The notes beneath the pieces are model-generated. The model was given only the letters and a program-made list of their open reading frames with translations, was not told the DNA's origin and made no database searches. The translations under genes and the position numbers were made by a program. Source: Herbidospora galbida (GTDB lineage: Bacteria > Actinomycetota > Actinomycetes > Streptosporangiales > Streptosporangiaceae). Taken from it: a DNA stretch of 64,000 nucleotides. Below are positions 4,212 through 36,505 of the stretch, piece by piece; the first letter of the stretch is position 1, and each line of letters starts with the position of its first letter. Location: positions 1 through 64,000 of the forward strand of contig NZ_SZQA01000021.1 in assembly GCF_005233835.1 (NCBI RefSeq), written 5' to 3'.

Positions 4212-4946
4212 ATGACGCCTCCGGAGGCAGCCATCGACCGCCGACTCGTCCTCTGGAACATCGACCTGACCCTGGTCGACGTCACGATCGTCACCCGGGA
4301 CGCCTACGCCGAGGCGTTCCGCGCGGTCACCGGGCGTCCGCTCGTGAAGCTGGCGCCCGCGATGGGGCGGCCCGACTCGGAGATCATCTTCGAGACCCTG
4401 GCGATCAACGGCATCGTGGTCGACGACGGGCACCTGCCGAGGTTCATCGAGGCGCTGGCCCGGTCGTTCGGCGACCGGCGCAAGCGGCTGGCCAAGGAGG
4501 GCCGGGCGATGCCCGGCGCCAAGGACGCGCTGCACGCCGTCTCCCGCCTCGACGGGACGGTCCAGTCGGTGCTGACCGGCACCGTCAAGTCGAACGCCAT
4601 CCACAAGCTGATGGCCTTCGGCCTCGACAAGTACGTCGACTTCGAGGTCGGCGGCTACGGCGAGGAGGTCTACCCGAAGGCCAGCCTCCTCCAGGTCGCC
4701 CAGGGCCGGGCCAAGGACAAGTACCGCGCCCCCTTCGAGGTCGTCCTGATCGGCGACTCGACCCGTGACGTGCAGGCCGCCCGGATCGCCGGAGCCGCGA
4801 TGATCGCGGTCGCGTCGGGCCGGTCGACCGCCGCCGAACTCACCGAGGCCGGGGCCGACATCGTGCTGCCCGACCTGTCGAACGCCTCCGAAGTGGTCGC
4901 CGCGGTGGCCCGCCTGACCGACCGTTATGTGGGGGGCCGACAGTGA
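4212..4946 (+). CDS. HAD-superfamily protein with Asn at the nucleophile position
   Basis: A 244-aa HAD-fold protein; the ATG at 4212 follows AAGGCAG and a -10-like TACTCT at about 4175. Motif I reads LWNIDLTLV: the nucleophilic Asp is Asn16 (AAC codon), while the second Asp (Asp18) is kept. A Thr in SVLTGTVKSN serves motif II, a Lys lies in YPKASLL, and GDSTRDVQAA gives motif IV. Loss of the nucleophile predicts loss of classical phosphohydrolase activity unless the Asn is deamidated or the protein is a binder or regulator. The remainder of the fold looks intact and the gene is not decayed. Confidence 0.82.
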   Translation: MTPPEAAIDRRLVLWNIDLTLVDVTIVTRDAYAEAFRAVTGRPLVKLAPAMGRPDSEIIFETLAINGIVVDDGHLPRFIEALARSFGDRRKRLAKEGRAMPGAKDALHAVSRLDGTVQSVLTGTVKSNAIHKLMAFGLDKYVDFEVGGYGEEVYPKASLLQVAQGRAKDKYRAPFEVVLIGDSTRDVQAARIAGAAMIAVASGRSTAAELTEAGADIVLPDLSNASEVVAAVARLTDRYVGGRQ

Positions 4947-25426: not shown

Positions 25427-25813
25427 GGGGGTGACCGGTTTCGACTTTGGCATTACAAGCCAGGGGAAGCGGGCCGAGGACGGCGGACATAACCTCGTTA
25501 ACACTGTGACCGCAAACAAATAAGTGCCAATACCAAGGCCACTTCGGTTAGCCAGGGTTCCCTGGCTCTCGCTGCCTAAGCAGACGAGTTAAACCGTGTC
25601 AGCCCGGGACCGCCTCCGGCCCGGGATCTGGCATCGCTAGGAGGCTCCACCATCTTCGCCGGCCGCGGGGGAGGATGGGAAAACAAACAGCGGATGAGCC
25701 CGTCGGCGACTCGCCTGTGAGAGCGCCGGGGCTGAGAAAACGCTAAACAGGCTGCGCCCGGAGAAGCCCTGACTCGGTGCTGAAGGACGCGGGTTCGATT
25801 CCCGCCACCTCCA
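25427..25813 (+). ncRNA. ssrA: Transfer-messenger RNA (tmRNA)
   Basis: The tRNA-like ends pair as an acceptor stem (GGGGGTG at 25427-25433 with CACCTCC at 25806-25812), with ACCGGTTTCGACTT after the 5' strand and a T-arm GCGGGTTCGATTCCCGC at the 3' end; CCA is not encoded. The tag frame resumes at GCC 25526 and ends at TAA 25577-25579: ANTKATSVSQGSLALAA, ending in the LAA degron read by ClpXP. GC-rich pseudoknot-forming sequence fills the rest. tmRNA rescues ribosomes from mRNAs without stop codons. Start and end are inferred from the acceptor stem. Confidence 0.95.
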
Positions 25814-25818
25814 CTCTC

Positions 25819-32724: not shown

Positions 32725-34067
32725 CAGCTCCCGGACAGCTTCCGCTTGTCGTCGATGCGCGCGTCTACCTCCGCCAGGCCGGCGTCCAGATCCTTGACCG
32801 CGCCCTTCTCCCACTCGATGAGGAAGGTGGAGAAGGCGTCCTGGTTGAAGACGCTGTTGACGTTCGCGGGCAGGGTCGAGGTCTTCGGGTGGGCGAAGAT
32901 GTCGAGGAAGGTGGCGAACCTGTCGTCCTTGGCCAGGCCGGGGTGGTCCATGGCGGCCTTGGTGGTGGGCACGTTGCGCAGCGCGTTCGACAGCGTCACC
33001 AGCGACTCGGTGTCGGTGGTCAGGTATTTGACCAGCTCCCAGGCCTGCTGCGGGTGCTTGGCGCCCTTCGGTACGCCGATGACGGTGCCGGCGGTGAAGC
33101 CGCTGCCGTACAGGTCGGGCTTGTCGTCGGCGACGGGCAGCGGCGCGGTGCCGTAGTCCATGTCCTTGGCCTCGGGGTCGGCGGCGATCATGGCGTTGCG
33201 CCACTCGCCGTCGAGGACCATCGCGACCTTGCCCTCGAAGAAGGGGTGCTCGGCGCCCCACTCGTCGCCCAGGCCCTTGCGGAACTTCTCCAGCTTGTCG
33301 TAGCCGTACCAGTCGACGAGCTCCTTCTGCCACTGGAGCAGCTGCTTCCAGGCCGGGTCGGAGCCGATGGCCGAGGTGCCGTCGTCGTTGTACCACTTCG
33401 CGCCGACCATCGGCCCGAGGTGGCTGGGGGAGTTCTCGTAGTACTGGAAGCTCGGGATGAACCCGGCGACCTCGATGTTGCCCTCGGCGTCGCGGACGGT
33501 GAGCTTCTTGGTCAGCTCGGTCAGCTCCGACAGCGTCTTCGGCGGCTGCTCGCCCTTCATCAGGGCCTTGTTGTAGTAGAGGCCGTAGGCGTCGGCGAGC
33601 AGCGGCATCGTGCACCGCTTGCCCTCGAACTCCGTGTACGACCGCGACGCCGCCGGCAGCACGTTCAGGTCGATGCCGTCCTGCGCGATGACGGGCGTGA
33701 GGTCCTGGAACGCCCCGCTCTTGCACCACTGGGCGACGTTGTCGGTGGTGAACGAGGCCGCCACGTCGGGCGCCTGGCCGCCCCGGATCGCCTGGGTGAT
33801 CTGGGCGTCCTGGATGCCCTTCTGCGCGACCACCTTGATCTGCGGGTACTTCGCGGTGAACCCCGCGATGGCGTCTTCGAACGCCTTGGTCTCGACGTCG
33901 GTGGAGAAGCCGTGCCACAGCTCCAGCGTGGCGGCGGGCAGCGCGGCGGGGTCGGTCGAGGTGGTCGTGGGTTTGGCGCCGAGGGCGGGCGGCGCGGAGT
34001 TGCCCGCGGTGCACGCGGTCAGCGTCAGGGCCAGCAGTCCGGCTGCCGCGAGGGGGAGAGAGCGCAC
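32724..34067 (-). CDS. Extracellular sugar-binding lipoprotein of an ABC importer
   Basis: A 447-aa family 1 solute-binding protein with a lipobox (LALTLTAC, Cys19), a Thr/Pro linker and the typical start LELWHGFSTDVETKAFEDAIAGFTAKYPQIKV. It captures the oligosaccharide outside the membrane and delivers it to the two permeases. GTG 34067 is selected because AGGAGG lies 6 nt upstream and the signal peptide starts there. It is the first gene of a minus-strand operon that runs to the ROK regulator at 27003. Confidence 0.93.
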   Translation of the reverse strand: MRSLPLAAAGLLALTLTACTAGNSAPPALGAKPTTTSTDPAALPAATLELWHGFSTDVETKAFEDAIAGFTAKYPQIKVVAQKGIQDAQITQAIRGGQAPDVAASFTTDNVAQWCKSGAFQDLTPVIAQDGIDLNVLPAASRSYTEFEGKRCTMPLLADAYGLYYNKALMKGEQPPKTLSELTELTKKLTVRDAEGNIEVAGFIPSFQYYENSPSHLGPMVGAKWYNDDGTSAIGSDPAWKQLLQWQKELVDWYGYDKLEKFRKGLGDEWGAEHPFFEGKVAMVLDGEWRNAMIAADPEAKDMDYGTAPLPVADDKPDLYGSGFTAGTVIGVPKGAKHPQQAWELVKYLTTDTESLVTLSNALRNVPTTKAAMDHPGLAKDDRFATFLDIFAHPKTSTLPANVNSVFNQDAFSTFLIEWEKGAVKDLDAGLAEVDARIDDKRKLSGS

Positions 34068-34098
34068 GTGGTGCCTCCTATGACCAGGGATGCACGGC

Positions 34099-34121
34099 AA
34101 GTTAGTAAGTCTTCCTAACTT
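34099..34121. promoter_or_regulatory. 23-bp palindromic operator of the sugar operon, probable ROK-regulator site
   Basis: AAGTTAG (34099-34105) and CTAACTT (34115-34121) are perfect inverted arms around a 9-bp spacer, 31 bases upstream of the binding-protein start. It resembles TTAGTNA-type sites of NagC/Rok regulators and is AT-rich against a GC-rich background. Confidence 0.65.
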
Positions 34122-34200
34122 TCCATGGACCCTAGGACGGCCCTATGGACGGGTCAAGGGGCGACATCAACTCGTAACAGCGCCTGGCGGGCAACAGTCC

Positions 34201-34608
34201 TTACGACCAGCTGAGGCGGCCGGCGTGGTGGAGATGGTCGAAGACGGCCTGGTTGGCGGGGGAGACCCGGTCGCGGTCGGCGTAGGTGAGCCAGGCCAGC
34301 TCGGCGATCTCGCCGCCCGGGGTCGGCTCGCCCTCGTGGTCGGCGGTGTAGCAGGTGATCCGCACGATGACGCCGTCGGTCCGGCCGTGGGCCCCCGCCT
34401 CGAAGACGCCCACCAGGACGGCCGTGCCCGGGGCGATGGTCACGGTGAGCTCCTCGCGGATCTCCCGCACCAGGGTGTCGAGGTCGGTCTCGCCGGGTTC
34501 GCGCTTGCCGCCGGGGACGTAGTAGGCGTCCTTGCCGTGCGACCGGGCGCCGAGGATCCTCCCGTCGCGGAGGCAGATCCAGGCGATCTTGTCGATGGTG
34601 CCGTTCAT
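34201..34608 (-). CDS. NUDIX hydrolase
   Basis: A 135-aa NUDIX protein with the box GGKREPGETDLDTLVREIREELTV (G-x5-E-x7-RE-x2-EE), which binds Mg2+ and a pyrophosphate-containing nucleotide. The N-terminus MNGTIDKIAWICLRDGRIL begins at ATG 34608. Members of this size hydrolyse nucleoside diphosphate derivatives; the substrate here cannot be told. It lies 53 bases downstream of the second tRNA gene on the same strand, so it may be read from the same promoter. Confidence 0.9.
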   Translation of the reverse strand: MNGTIDKIAWICLRDGRILGARSHGKDAYYVPGGKREPGETDLDTLVREIREELTVTIAPGTAVLVGVFEAGAHGRTDGVIVRITCYTADHEGEPTPGGEIAELAWLTYADRDRVSPANQAVFDHLHHAGRLSWS

Positions 34609-34661
34609 GGGTGCCAGTGTGGTCTGTACCCCGAGCGAACTGGACCGCTGGATCAACGGGG

Positions 34662-34735
34662 TGCCGCCCCGGGGATTCGAACCCCGACTGCCCGTGTCCT
34701 GAGCACGGTGCCTCCTGCCGTTGGGCTAGAGCGGC
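34662..34735 (-). tRNA. tRNA gene with anticodon CAG (Leu codon CUG) but a short variable loop
   Basis: Full cloverleaf: acceptor GCCGCTC/GGGCGGC (one G-U), D-arm with GCC/GGC stem, anticodon stem CCGTG/CACGG with loop CTCAGGA (anticodon CAG, 34701-34699), variable region GCAGT (5 nt), T-arm CGGGG-TTCGAAT-CCCCG, discriminator A. CCA is not encoded (ACCCC follows). CAG is a leucine anticodon, yet bacterial tRNA-Leu has a long variable arm; this is a class I body. So charging identity is uncertain. It starts 1 base after the CCA of the upstream tRNA. Confidence 0.8.
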
Positions 34736-34736
34736 T

Positions 34737-34812
34737 TGGTACGTCCGGCGGGATTCGAACCCGCGACCTCCGGCATCTCGGGCCGGCGCCTCTCCCGTTG
34801 GGCTACGGACGC
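34737..34812 (-). tRNA. tRNA-like gene with anticodon GAG (Leu codons CUC/CUU), C33 and a short variable loop
   Basis: Cloverleaf: acceptor GCGTCCG/CGGACGT (first pair G-U), D-arm GCC/GGC, anticodon stem CCGGC/GCCGG with loop CCGAGAT, variable AGGTC (5 nt), T-arm GCGGG-TTCGAAT-CCCGC, discriminator A and encoded CCA (34739-34737). The anticodon is GAG, but position 33, almost always U, is C. As in its neighbour the body is class I although the anticodon is Leu. D-arms of both genes are nearly identical (TAGCCCAACGG), so the pair probably arose by duplication. No independent promoter fits between it and the terminator 16 nt upstream. Confidence 0.75.
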
Positions 34813-34828
34813 GTGAATTCGGCGCATG

Positions 34829-34859
34829 AAAAAGCCGCCGGGTCGTCACCTGGCGGCTT
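34829..34859 (-). terminator. Strong intrinsic terminator between a small Leu-rich ORF and the tRNA pair
   Basis: Read on the minus strand, AAGCCGCCAGGT (34859-34848) pairs with ATCC-type complement GCCCGGCGGCTT (34843-34832) over a GACG loop: 12 bp with one G-U, followed by TTTTTC. It lies 17 nt after the small ORF stop and 16 nt before the GAG tRNA. It is placed like an attenuator. Confidence 0.85.
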
Positions 34860-34876
34860 CGCGGGCGTTTCCCCTT

Positions 34877-34960
34877 TTATTCAGCCGGGGATCGCCGCTG
34901 CCGCAGGACCAGGACGAGCAGGAGGCCGCCGGCCTGTTCCTGCCGGGCTTCGTAGCTCAT
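34877..34960 (-). CDS. 27-residue peptide with a Leu/Val run, probable leader peptide
   Basis: ATG 34960 has GGAAAGGA 7 nt upstream; the frame encodes MSYEARQEQAGG, then LLLVLVL, then RQRRSPAE and TAA. The Leu codons are CTC, CTG, CTC, CTG, CTG, exactly those read by the two downstream tRNA anticodons (GAG, CAG). The GGC-GGC before the Leu run can pair with GCCGCC of the following terminator. This is the layout of a transcription-attenuation leader. A -10-like TACGGT (minus strand, 35012-35007) lies about 47 nt upstream. It could instead encode a small membrane peptide. Confidence 0.6.
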   Translation of the reverse strand: MSYEARQEQAGGLLLVLVLRQRRSPAE

Positions 34961-35086
34961 GGAATCGTCCTTTCCTGCTTGACTGGAGCGGCTGCTGTTG
35001 TCGAAAACCGTAGCCGCTCACAACGGCGCGGGCGAATTGTTTAATGGACGGCGATGAGGTCGGCGGCAGCCTCATCGCCGCGAATT

Positions 35087-35716
35087 TCAGCCGTAGGTCG
35101 GATATTGCGGCCAGCCCACGGGAGAGTCCTCCCAGTCTTCCTGGCGGCCCCACGGCGTGAGGTCGAGGAAGCTGTGGGTGAAGACCAGGCGGTCGACCCC
35201 GCGCGCCGTCGTGTTGTAGGTGCGGTAGACCCGGTCTCCGTCGCGGAGGAAGACGCTCAGCATGAAGCCCCGGCCCGCGCCGCAGTCGTCGGAGAACGTC
35301 GTGCCGTTCGACGACAGGAACGGCAGCGTCCAGCCGCGTTCGGCCTTGTAGGCCTCGATCTGGGCCAGCGGCATGTTGGAGATCGTCGCCCAGCTGACGC
35401 CCTTCTCGGCCAGCGCCGGCAGGGCTCCCGCCGGGACGTTGTCGGTGAACTTGGTGCAGCCGGGACAGAAGTGGCGCGGGCCGTTGTCCATGAACTGGTA
35501 GACGATCAGCTGGTCGCGGCCCTCGAAGAGATCGAGAAGCGTGCGGGGCCCGTCGGGACCCGCGAAGACGTAGTCACTCCGGAACTCCGTCATCGGGAGC
35601 CGGCGGCGCTGGGCGGCGACGGCGTCTTCGGCCCGTGTGGCCTCCTTTTCCGCTTTCAGGAGGTTATCGCGGGCAAGTTGCCACTCTTCAGGTGATACGA
35701 CTGGTGGTTTGCTCAT
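35087..35716 (-). CDS. DUF899 family thioredoxin-fold protein
   Basis: A 209-aa protein beginning MSKPPVVSPEEWQLARDNLLKAEKEATR and containing the DUF899 hallmarks MTEFRSDYVFAGPDGPRTLLDLFEGRDQLIVYQFM, HFCPGCTKFTDNV and FSDDCGAGRGFMLSVFLRDG, ending in LDLTPWGRQEDWEDSP. The family has a thioredoxin/AhpC-like fold with a CxxC (CPGC) and is of unknown function; a redox or thiol role is inferred. ATG 35716 has only a weak ribosome site. It stands between the leader-peptide/tRNA region and the SDR gene, divergent from the latter. Confidence 0.88.
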   Translation of the reverse strand: MSKPPVVSPEEWQLARDNLLKAEKEATRAEDAVAAQRRRLPMTEFRSDYVFAGPDGPRTLLDLFEGRDQLIVYQFMDNGPRHFCPGCTKFTDNVPAGALPALAEKGVSWATISNMPLAQIEAYKAERGWTLPFLSSNGTTFSDDCGAGRGFMLSVFLRDGDRVYRTYNTTARGVDRLVFTHSFLDLTPWGRQEDWEDSPVGWPQYPTYG

Positions 35717-35778
35717 AGGCGGATTCTGCCCAATGGGTATGACAGAAACCGAGGGTGCCCAGGTCAAGGGGGATGCAG

Positions 35779-36492
35779 ATGGAACTGGACGGGCAGCGGG
35801 TCGTTCTCCTCGGGGGCACCTCAGGCATCGGGTTCGGGGCCGCGCGGATCGCGGCGGCCCACGGGGCCGAGGTCGTCGTGGTCTCCTCCCGCGAGGAGAA
35901 CGTCCGCCACACCCTCGACCAGTTGCCCGATTCAGCGTGGGGAGACGTCGCCGACTTCAGCGACCCGGACGCCATCGAGAGCGTCATCGGCCGCATCGGG
36001 CGTCTGGACCATCTGATCTACACGGCCGGGGAGCCCCTTTACATCTCCCCGGTCGAGCATCTCGACATCGCCGTGGCCCGTGAGTACTTCCAGATCCGCT
36101 TCTTCGGCGCGCTGGCCGCCGCGAAGGCCGCGCGGGGCCGGATGCCCGACACGGGCAGCATCATCGTGACGGCGGGGGTGGCCAAAGACCGGCCGGGGTT
36201 CGGGTGGGCGGGGCCGGCGTCCATCTCGGGGGCGCTTGAGGCGTTGACGAAGGCGCTGGCCGTGGAGTTCGCGCCCGTACGGGTCAACTGCGTCGCCCCC
36301 GGGGTGATCAGGTCGCCGCTGTGGCAGGGGACGCTCCACGTCGAGGAGATGTACCAGGAGATCGCCGACACGTGCCTGGCCGGGCGGGTGGGCGAGATCG
36401 AGGACGTGGCCAAGGCCTACCTCTACCTGATGACCCAGGACTACTCGACCGGGATGGTGCTGACCGTCGACGGGGGCCTCACCCTCGTCTGA
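35779..36492 (+). CDS. SDR-fold protein lacking the catalytic Tyr-x3-Lys
   Basis: A 237-aa Rossmann protein with the cofactor motif LLGGTSGIGFGAARIAA and the downstream LIYTAGEPL, VNCVAPGVIRSPLW and final LTVDGGL. The region that should contain YxxxK reads GWAGPASISGALEALTKALAVE: there is no Tyr or Lys at the expected places, although the following helix is conserved. It may bind NAD(P) without oxidoreductase chemistry or use other residues. AAGGGGG is 6 nt before ATG 35779; the ATG at 35773 abuts that site. Confidence 0.85.
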   Translation: MELDGQRVVLLGGTSGIGFGAARIAAAHGAEVVVVSSREENVRHTLDQLPDSAWGDVADFSDPDAIESVIGRIGRLDHLIYTAGEPLYISPVEHLDIAVAREYFQIRFFGALAAAKAARGRMPDTGSIIVTAGVAKDRPGFGWAGPASISGALEALTKALAVEFAPVRVNCVAPGVIRSPLWQGTLHVEEMYQEIADTCLAGRVGEIEDVAKAYLYLMTQDYSTGMVLTVDGGLTLV

Positions 36493-36505
36493 CAGACTGT
36501 CCGGC

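Follow-up and report, generated by a model that had tools for sequence, protein, structure and literature searches.

The window analysed here comprises 64,000 nucleotides of the Herbidospora galbida contig NZ_SZQA01000021.1 (positions 1 to 64,000). A short leader ORF, an intrinsic terminator, and two tRNA genes follow one another on its minus strand at the coordinates given in the initial annotation, which had read them as a leader-peptide attenuator acting on the tRNAs. The features of the locus, in 5′ to 3′ order and with their basis in brackets, are as follows:

35007..35036, minus strand: promoter-like element TTCGCC - 18 nt - TACGGT, 5′ of the leader (sequence reading)
34968..34976, minus strand: Shine-Dalgarno site AGGAAAGGA of the leader ORF (sequence)
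34877..34960, minus strand, running from 34960 to 34877: leader peptide ORF MSYEARQEQAGGLLLVLVLRQRRSPAE, 27 codons (frame-specific isotype match across 94 loci)
34904..34924, minus strand: candidate control codons CTC CTG CTC GTC CTG GTC CTG, L13-L19 (sequence and fold model)
34900..34907, minus strand: 5′ strand of the candidate antiterminator, CCTGCGGC (Herbidospora conservation and fold model)
34829..34859, minus strand: intrinsic terminator, AAGCCGCCAGG..CCCGGCGGCTT followed by TTTTT (own scan and covariance model)
34737..34812, minus strand: tRNA-Leu(GAG), with a short variable arm and C33 in the anticodon loop
34660..34735, minus strand: tRNA-Leu(CAG), with a short variable arm
34201..34608, minus strand: NUDIX hydrolase gene, 3′ of the tRNAs (Pfam NUDIX, E 5.4e-12)

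As initially described, the 27-codon ORF is preceded by a strong Shine-Dalgarno site, and Leu in its run is encoded exclusively by CTC and CTG; the leader also contains E, R, Q, A, and S codons, for which the array has no matching tRNA. The tRNA-Leu(GAG) gene starts 16 nt past the terminator, as reported. The description of the terminator stood as regards its TTTTT tract and the 17 nt that separate it from the leader stop, but its stem contains one mismatch. The 5′ arm of this stem (34857-34849, GCCGCCAGG) is shared with the candidate antiterminator. The element at 35007..35036 may act as a promoter: a motif of this type, written after the sequences had been seen, is present 5′ of 57 of the 94 leaders described below, compared to a mean of 0.7 in shuffled sequences. 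A generic promoter and terminator scan of positions 33500-36500 returned no promoter and no sigma-70-type element; because the same scan also missed the terminator and the promoter-like element, these absences were not used.

Comparison with related genomes, which had been proposed as a check, revealed the same arrangement of leader, terminator, and tRNAs in all but one of the six other Herbidospora genomes examined. With the window included, the arrays are Leu-Leu; Leu-Leu-Glu-Glu; Leu-Glu-Glu (twice); Gln-Leu-Leu-Glu-Glu-Arg; and Ala-Gln-Leu-Leu-Ser-Glu-Glu-Arg. The leader peptides vary (e.g., MNSERLLLLRLRQRRSPAE and MSYEARQEQARSLRSLESRSLRALILRHRRLPS), the sequence of tRNA-Leu(CAG) is identical between the window and five of the six other genomes, and CCTGCGGC is unchanged in five of six Herbidospora leaders, with one change in genome G001. 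The NUDIX gene, initially suggested to be under the same control, follows only four of six Herbidospora loci (it was recognised by eye in the relatives) and is therefore not part of the unit; a functional link through this gene was rejected. In G001, an apparent remnant of tRNA-Leu(GAG) is seen between the terminator and tRNA-Leu(CAG), just 5′ of position 4311 of locus L024, which suggests loss of this tRNA from the array. The genome of the window also contains a second array (L029, L296; G000:C44:50094-51274) of 14 tRNAs, nearly one per isotype, which resembles the tRNA arrays of mobile elements and for which no matching leader was found.

Further arrays were discovered by means of a model of short-arm tRNAs (R1) and by DNA search. 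In the family Streptosporangiaceae, we collected 94 distinct loci in which a Shine-Dalgarno-preceded leader ORF of 12-60 aa is followed by an intrinsic terminator and then by accessory tRNA genes. The ORFs were picked by their ribosome site and by how far they lie from the terminator, and peptide content played no part in the choice; a terminator was required for inclusion and was searched for 13-26 nt past the stop. The distances found were 14-25 nt, and 17-21 nt at 84 of the 94 loci. By construction, all 94 real loci pass the search for a Shine-Dalgarno-preceded ORF, which is passed by 4% of their shuffled copies; 88 of the 94 leaders have a Shine-Dalgarno site of a type that the script counts as strong. 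Among loci L001-L148, considered without preselection, the pipeline found a leader for 44 of 71 distinct clusters of at least two tRNAs and no leader for the other 27; when single tRNAs were counted too, a leader was found for 45 of 111 clusters.

A covariance model of the leader end and the terminator (R2, built from 41 sequences) matched 91 of 341 family genomes, in 10 of 68 genera, at E ≤ 0.001. The sole match in the genome of the window is the terminator described above, the locus having been in the training set. Of 128 matches listed, 112 were examined and sixteen were left out; at 110 of the 112 (41 being training sequences) a tRNA gene is located on the same strand within 300 nt downstream, at a median distance of 16.5 nt. 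The two exceptions, L216 and L232, have a leader and a terminator with no tRNA found behind them, the tRNA gene perhaps having been lost afterwards.

No convincing leader was found outside the family in a class-wide R2 search of 394 genomes: seven genomes gave matches, three of them family members, and the other four contain five matches of 33.7-37.3 bits, four at loci without a tRNA and the fifth overlapping a single tRNA-Val. When the tRNA model was searched against the class, 43 of 384 genomes matched at E 3e-19 and 30 loci were obtained; at the 21 new ones outside the family there are lone Leu(TAG) or Leu(TAA) genes, with no arrays. Searches of phage and plasmid DNA with one array returned partial tRNA similarity only (134 and 14 records, respectively), with no record covering 80% of the query. 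Fourteen further multi-tRNA arrays have no pipeline leader; an upstream ORF that covers the isotypes and is preceded by a Shine-Dalgarno site is present at eight of them (e.g., a Leu-Leu-Tyr array with MRRLLYRLPSASHASNGRYPV) and at six there is none, but the ORFs of these arrays were displayed only when they matched, so the result is a lead rather than a test. For several arrays, a matching upstream ORF is present but the script found no terminator. Recurring Leu-Leu-Tyr or Leu-Tyr arrays were observed in genus g51 (L115, L120, L131, L142-L144, and relatives); upstream ORFs with a strong Shine-Dalgarno site and with Leu and Tyr codons, again with no terminator found by the script, are seen at L115, L142, and L133, and the g51 arrays possibly use a different mode of termination.

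The codon content of leaders was compared with the tRNA content of arrays in 94 pairs (95 before one was dropped as a duplicate of both peptide and array). The leader core was defined by removing the start Met and the four C-terminal residues of the peptide; tRNAs left unnamed by ARAGORN were excluded from the isotype sets, and arrays were split at gaps of more than 350 nt. Of the 322 array isotypes, all but one (321) are represented by a codon in the core, the sole miss being L102, which has no Tyr codon. Thus matched are, for example, a Leu-Met-Arg array with leader MKFETIMRRRMRRILLMPRQASG, a Pro-Met-Gly array with MNTMPKRGTQPGQGPMSRQASG, a Trp-Leu-Leu-Ser-Arg-Arg array with MTREAISALRLRRHSWRSPLLSVNVRPWQAKR, and arrays Ala-Gln and Ala-Gln-Lys with MSRAATVRRTQRQAAQAVVRRAPG and MGRAAAAKWPQRQAGQAVVRRAPG, respectively. 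When arrays were permuted among leaders, the mean number of matches was 222.9 (maximum 253); permutation within clade or type gave 288.9 (maximum 305), and permutation within clade and array size gave 307.7 (maximum 318). In none of these schemes did any of 20,000 permutations reach 321, counts that are not to be read as probabilities because the loci share ancestry. The match is confined to the real frame: 193 and 210 isotypes were matched in the other forward frames and 234, 198, and 198 on the opposite strand, while shuffled ORFs matched a mean of 233 and at most 250.

The rarer residues track the array individually. All 11 leaders that precede a Cys tRNA contain a Cys codon, compared with 19% of the 83 others; the corresponding figures are 8 of 8 and 8% of 86 for Lys, 26 of 26 and 40% of 68 for Gln, 31 of 31 and 40% of 63 for Glu, and 14 of 15 and 29% of 79 for Tyr. 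Taken singly, Ala, Arg, Ser, Ile, and Asn say little, since Ala and Arg codons occur in almost every leader and the other three isotypes provide few cases. In the close pair L208 and L223, the Lys codon and the Lys tRNA differ together. At 14 more loci that had been missed by the ORF pipeline, 42 of 45 isotypes were matched when counted from start codons, the unmatched ones being Met (L230) and, in an array of 15 isotypes (L234), Asp and Val (13 of 15 so counted, and 14 of 15 if the open frame before the start is included). Eighteen model matches were inspected in all, 17 of them outside the 94; two lacked a tRNA, and L137 had no clear leader. A very large set of tRNA genes is located on a plasmid-sized contig of 198,862 bases (L109/L179; G291:C2:145500-155000) and consists of four tRNA genes near the leader and 31 more in L109. 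The first four tRNAs (Trp, Ala, Pro, and Met) are all matched by the leader. Should the 31-gene stretch lying 559 nt beyond them be part of this unit, the leader would match 15 of 20 isotypes.

At the level of codons, 320 of 343 array anticodons can read a leader codon by plain wobble rules. The leader Leu codons are CTG in 58 of 94 cases with CAG-only arrays and in 8 of 48 cases with AAG-only arrays (Fisher p = 2e-7), CTC being the Leu codon that goes with AAG arrays. In the largest Nonomuraea group alone, the figures are 14 of 28 and 8 of 48 (p = 0.0025), while the leader-level test in this group is not significant (p = 0.12). The dependence of Leu codon choice on the array anticodon suggests that isoacceptors rather than the amino acid are sensed.

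In leaders of the main Nonomuraea type, the last codons, GGCTTCYGGAT, can pair with the end of the spacer and the 5′ arm of the terminator, ATCCRGAGGCC; 90% of cells pair in this register, compared to 34-66% in neighbouring registers. The register is shifted by one in the Pro-Leu type, a second Nonomuraea stratum (88% versus 19-58%), and in g51 the pairing, at 71% of cells, is weaker than in the two Nonomuraea strata. In g1/g42, the clade of the window, the common register fails: 31-52% of cells are paired, no better than with swapped partners. With 64 loci pooled, native partners scored 538 and swapped partners a mean of 521.6, 2 of 5,000 shuffles being as good; swapped-partner tests inside single clades were weak or negative. 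Comparison of the sequences supports the antiterminator register in most clades.

The switch was also modelled co-transcriptionally, with the ribosome placed on the leader and the 3′ arm of the terminator not yet made. In this model, the probability that upstream RNA captures the 5′ arm averages 0.83 for a ribosome placed 42 nt ahead of the end of the ORF and 0.16 for one at the stop, the main drop occurring between 30 and 24 nt before the end. With shuffled ORF ends, capture at 42 nt is 0.62, and the real end gives a higher value at 90 of 93 loci. For the window, pairing of CCTGCGGC with GCCGCCAGG is predicted to form at 0.62 when CTC, CTG, or CTC (L13-L15) occupies the A-site and to drop to 0.01 over the two codons that follow; beyond these, alternative pairings restore capture to 0.35-0.54, and it is 0.33 at the stop. 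The modelled switch is thus clean on average over the loci and not clean at the window. The GGCGGC sequence, which had been proposed to pair with GCCGCC of the terminator, is missing from the other five Herbidospora leaders, and it is a poor candidate because it lies 5′ of the stall site and would be expected to be covered by a ribosome on the Leu run; it was rejected, and CCTGCGGC:GCCGCCAGG is the likelier candidate. In equilibrium folding, the probability of the terminator falls below 0.5 at some stall position at only 53 of the 94 loci. For the window, it stays at 0.86 whichever of the five Leu codons of the run the ribosome occupies, and the terminator wins at every position from the Leu run onward. 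Since the terminator often wins at equilibrium, the order and kinetics of co-transcriptional events must matter, as they do in classical attenuators.

The leader is very probably a ribosome-mediated transcription attenuator, as had been proposed. The comparative evidence for this consists of the co-conservation of the parts, a match to the array that is specific to frame and codon, and the register seen in most clades, to which the modelled switch is added; the promoter, ribosome stalling, read-through, and the trigger we infer. Transcription from the promoter would yield an RNA starting with a short ORF whose codons match the downstream tRNAs. With all the sensed tRNAs present, the ribosome would reach the stop and cover the last codons, the terminator would form, and the tRNA genes would stay silent. 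Were any sensed tRNA missing or uncharged, the ribosome would stall within the leader ORF, the last leader codons would base-pair with the terminator's 5′ arm, and RNA polymerase would read through, so that the whole replacement tRNA set would be made. Overall, an attenuator that senses the lack of any of several tRNAs and supplies replacements is, in our judgment, the likely explanation.

A skeptical reading would treat the codon match as an accident of common descent or of GC-rich composition, with the terminator merely ending upstream transcription. The loci do fall into few related types, Ala and Arg codons are nearly universal in leaders, and equilibrium folding often favours the terminator. 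This reading is scarcely credible in view of the shuffled ORFs, the other five frames, and the permutations restricted by clade and array size, and it is also at odds with the tracking of rarer residues (Cys 11/11, Lys 8/8, Tyr 14/15) and with the joint change of codon and tRNA between L208 and L223. The same leaders could instead control tRNAs that are mischarged and bring about programmed mistranslation; the initial annotation had likewise raised misreading of the Leu codons. tRNA-Leu is normally long-armed, and both array tRNAs of the window are 76 nt long with short variable arms, which makes them look different from the other Leu(CAG) and Leu(GAG) tRNAs of the genome, at 84 and 87 nt. The short arm is no sign of mischarging, however, because the Leu(TAA) and Leu(TAG) tRNAs of this genome are short-armed too, at 75 nt, no other copies of these isoacceptors having been found except in the C44 array (L283 and L292; G000:C21:126500-126800 and G000:C51:38600-38900), and single short-arm Leu(TAG) or Leu(TAA) genes were present at all 21 loci examined from other families (L424-L449). 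The window tRNAs are thus probably true Leu tRNAs. Arrays also carry many other, ordinary isotypes, and mistranslation as the purpose of the system is very improbable.

The architecture equals that of classical attenuators, which are predicted in PMC1262725 to precede trp, trpS, and leuS in Actinobacteria, and the leaders might accordingly sense amino acid starvation through uncharged tRNA, the extra tRNAs adjusting translation under such conditions. Leucine limitation had been suggested as a condition for testing read-through at the window. It is a poor trigger because 84 of the 94 arrays contain more than one isotype (the other 10 hold one), some of them 15 or more, and because a new tRNA gives no relief from starvation: it does not bring back charging. 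The regulated genes are neither biosynthetic nor synthetase genes, and the Leu codons follow the array anticodon, pointing to isoacceptor sensing. Starvation as the sensed event is, for these reasons, unlikely. Many actinomycetes produce antibiotics, and whiB7 leaders sense ribosome-targeting antibiotics; by analogy, the leaders could respond to such compounds, with the tRNAs assisting a stressed translation apparatus. The uORF of toiL responds to several classes of antibiotics, according to PMC12121999. Sensing of antibiotics gives no reason for the match of codons to 321 of 322 isotypes, and we consider it quite improbable, less so than mistranslation.

For an attenuator that senses a lack of tRNA, the sensed event is most likely the loss of host tRNAs, because a new tRNA cures a lack of tRNA and not a lack of amino acid. 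Our somewhat favoured suggestion is that host tRNAs are destroyed or inactivated by tRNA-targeting toxins or phage-defence enzymes and that the array copies may escape recognition by them. The anticodon loop differs from that of the host isoacceptor in 264 of 325 array tRNAs, a feature shared with phage-type tRNAs, whose changed anticodon loops are proposed in PMC10264068 to evade anticodon nucleases. The changes include C38 in place of A38 in Glu(TTC) (24/31), Glu(CTC) (6/7), Gly(TCC) (29/39), and Lys(CTT) (7/7), and C33 in place of U33 in Leu(GAG) (9/10). The remaining 61 of 325 loops are host-like, among them Cys (11/11), Val(TAC) (11/13), and Tyr (11/15). Host loops were hand-picked from the tRNAs of G000 and from part of those of G293 and G334, and extra Ala, Arg, Cys, Leu, and Trp copies of G334 (L409, L414, L419, and L420), presumed to be accessory, were left out by hand; with these removed, the host loops agree across the three genomes, Pro and Ser variants aside. 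Since most Cys, Val(TAC), and Tyr tRNAs have host loops and no nuclease gene recurs in the 15 neighbourhoods inspected, the trigger is put forward here as a tentative part of the explanation. No toxin or repair gene recurs in 15 array neighbourhoods, in which ORFs were read by eye; otherwise, this search consisted of Pfam analysis of six proteins and comparison of one PIN-like fragment with all ORFs of the 94 loci, and was not systematic.

We give about even chances to the broader idea of an inducible tRNA-replacement immunity, in which sensor-effector cassettes would combine an OR gate in the leader codons with altered tRNAs that the attacking nuclease cannot cut, leader and array co-evolving in such a way that almost all effector tRNAs have a sensor codon of their own. 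The sequences bear on why bacteria and phages keep seemingly redundant tRNA arrays. For one family, they offer a testable answer, namely, that many arrays appear to be switched and that the switch may report the very tRNAs it supplies. If this is true, the tRNA pool would regulate itself isotype by isotype, with a logic-gate sensor contained in a peptide of 12 to 60 residues, and the isotype rule would be a simple guide for finding systems of this kind elsewhere and for predicting the tRNAs that are attacked in any one lineage.

Leader-peptide attenuation itself is known; a tRNA product and the sensing logic, familiar to us from no other attenuator, are apparently new. The classical attenuators (trp, his, ilv, leuS) share with the leaders described here a translated leader, control codons, and mutually exclusive antiterminator and terminator; here, in contrast, the product is tRNA itself, mostly a multi-isotype set, and the leader samples the isotypes of that set rather than containing a run of codons for one amino acid, its content changing with the array. 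The tRNA array units of mycobacteria and of their phages and plasmids (PMC5966550) are likewise extra tRNA clusters, carried by actinobacterial chromosomes, phages, and plasmids, but the arrays considered here are mostly of 1-10 genes and lie behind a leader-attenuator. The main text of PMC5966550 contains none of the terms attenuat-, leader peptide, and terminator. The window locus, with two tRNAs, is below the number and density of a tRNA array unit, and its larger relatives reach 20 tRNAs in L234 and 31 in L109. The nuclease-evading tRNAs of phages (PMC10264068 and PMC11555353) are also spare tRNAs, with changed loops in the case of PMC10264068, while the arrays described here are bacterial, one being on a plasmid-sized contig, and stand behind a sensor matched to their content. 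In toiL of E. coli (PMC12121999), one uORF reports several translation stresses through the positions of stalling; it differs in that antibiotics are sensed and a toxin-antitoxin transcript is controlled by translation repression and Rho. In open-licence literature, most subscription papers and preprints being unsearchable, we found no attenuators acting on tRNA genes and no leaders matched to tRNA arrays, in agreement with the initial annotation, which knew of no described system of such form.

T-box leaders bind uncharged tRNA directly, without translation, and prevent termination. They are alike in sensing the state of tRNA, but here the signal is in a translated ORF, and the whole window gave no T-box match at Rfam gathering scores, the families listed being a tmRNA and the two tRNAs.

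Decayed VapB/VapC-like remnants are located directly 5′ of the leader in two of six Herbidospora genomes (L024:3400-4010 in G001 and L002:1075-1434 in G005). Many VapC toxins are tRNases. The VapC-like piece matches Pfam PIN with an E value of 0.0024, short of the curated cut-off, and the likeness to VapB is a reading of the letters; the remnants, which are the sole hint of a toxin near the arrays, were not counted as evidence. The tmRNA gene of the window is at 25427-25814 on the plus strand and encodes the tag peptide ANTKATSVSQGSLALAA, which is longer than is usual for tmRNA tags of actinobacteria.
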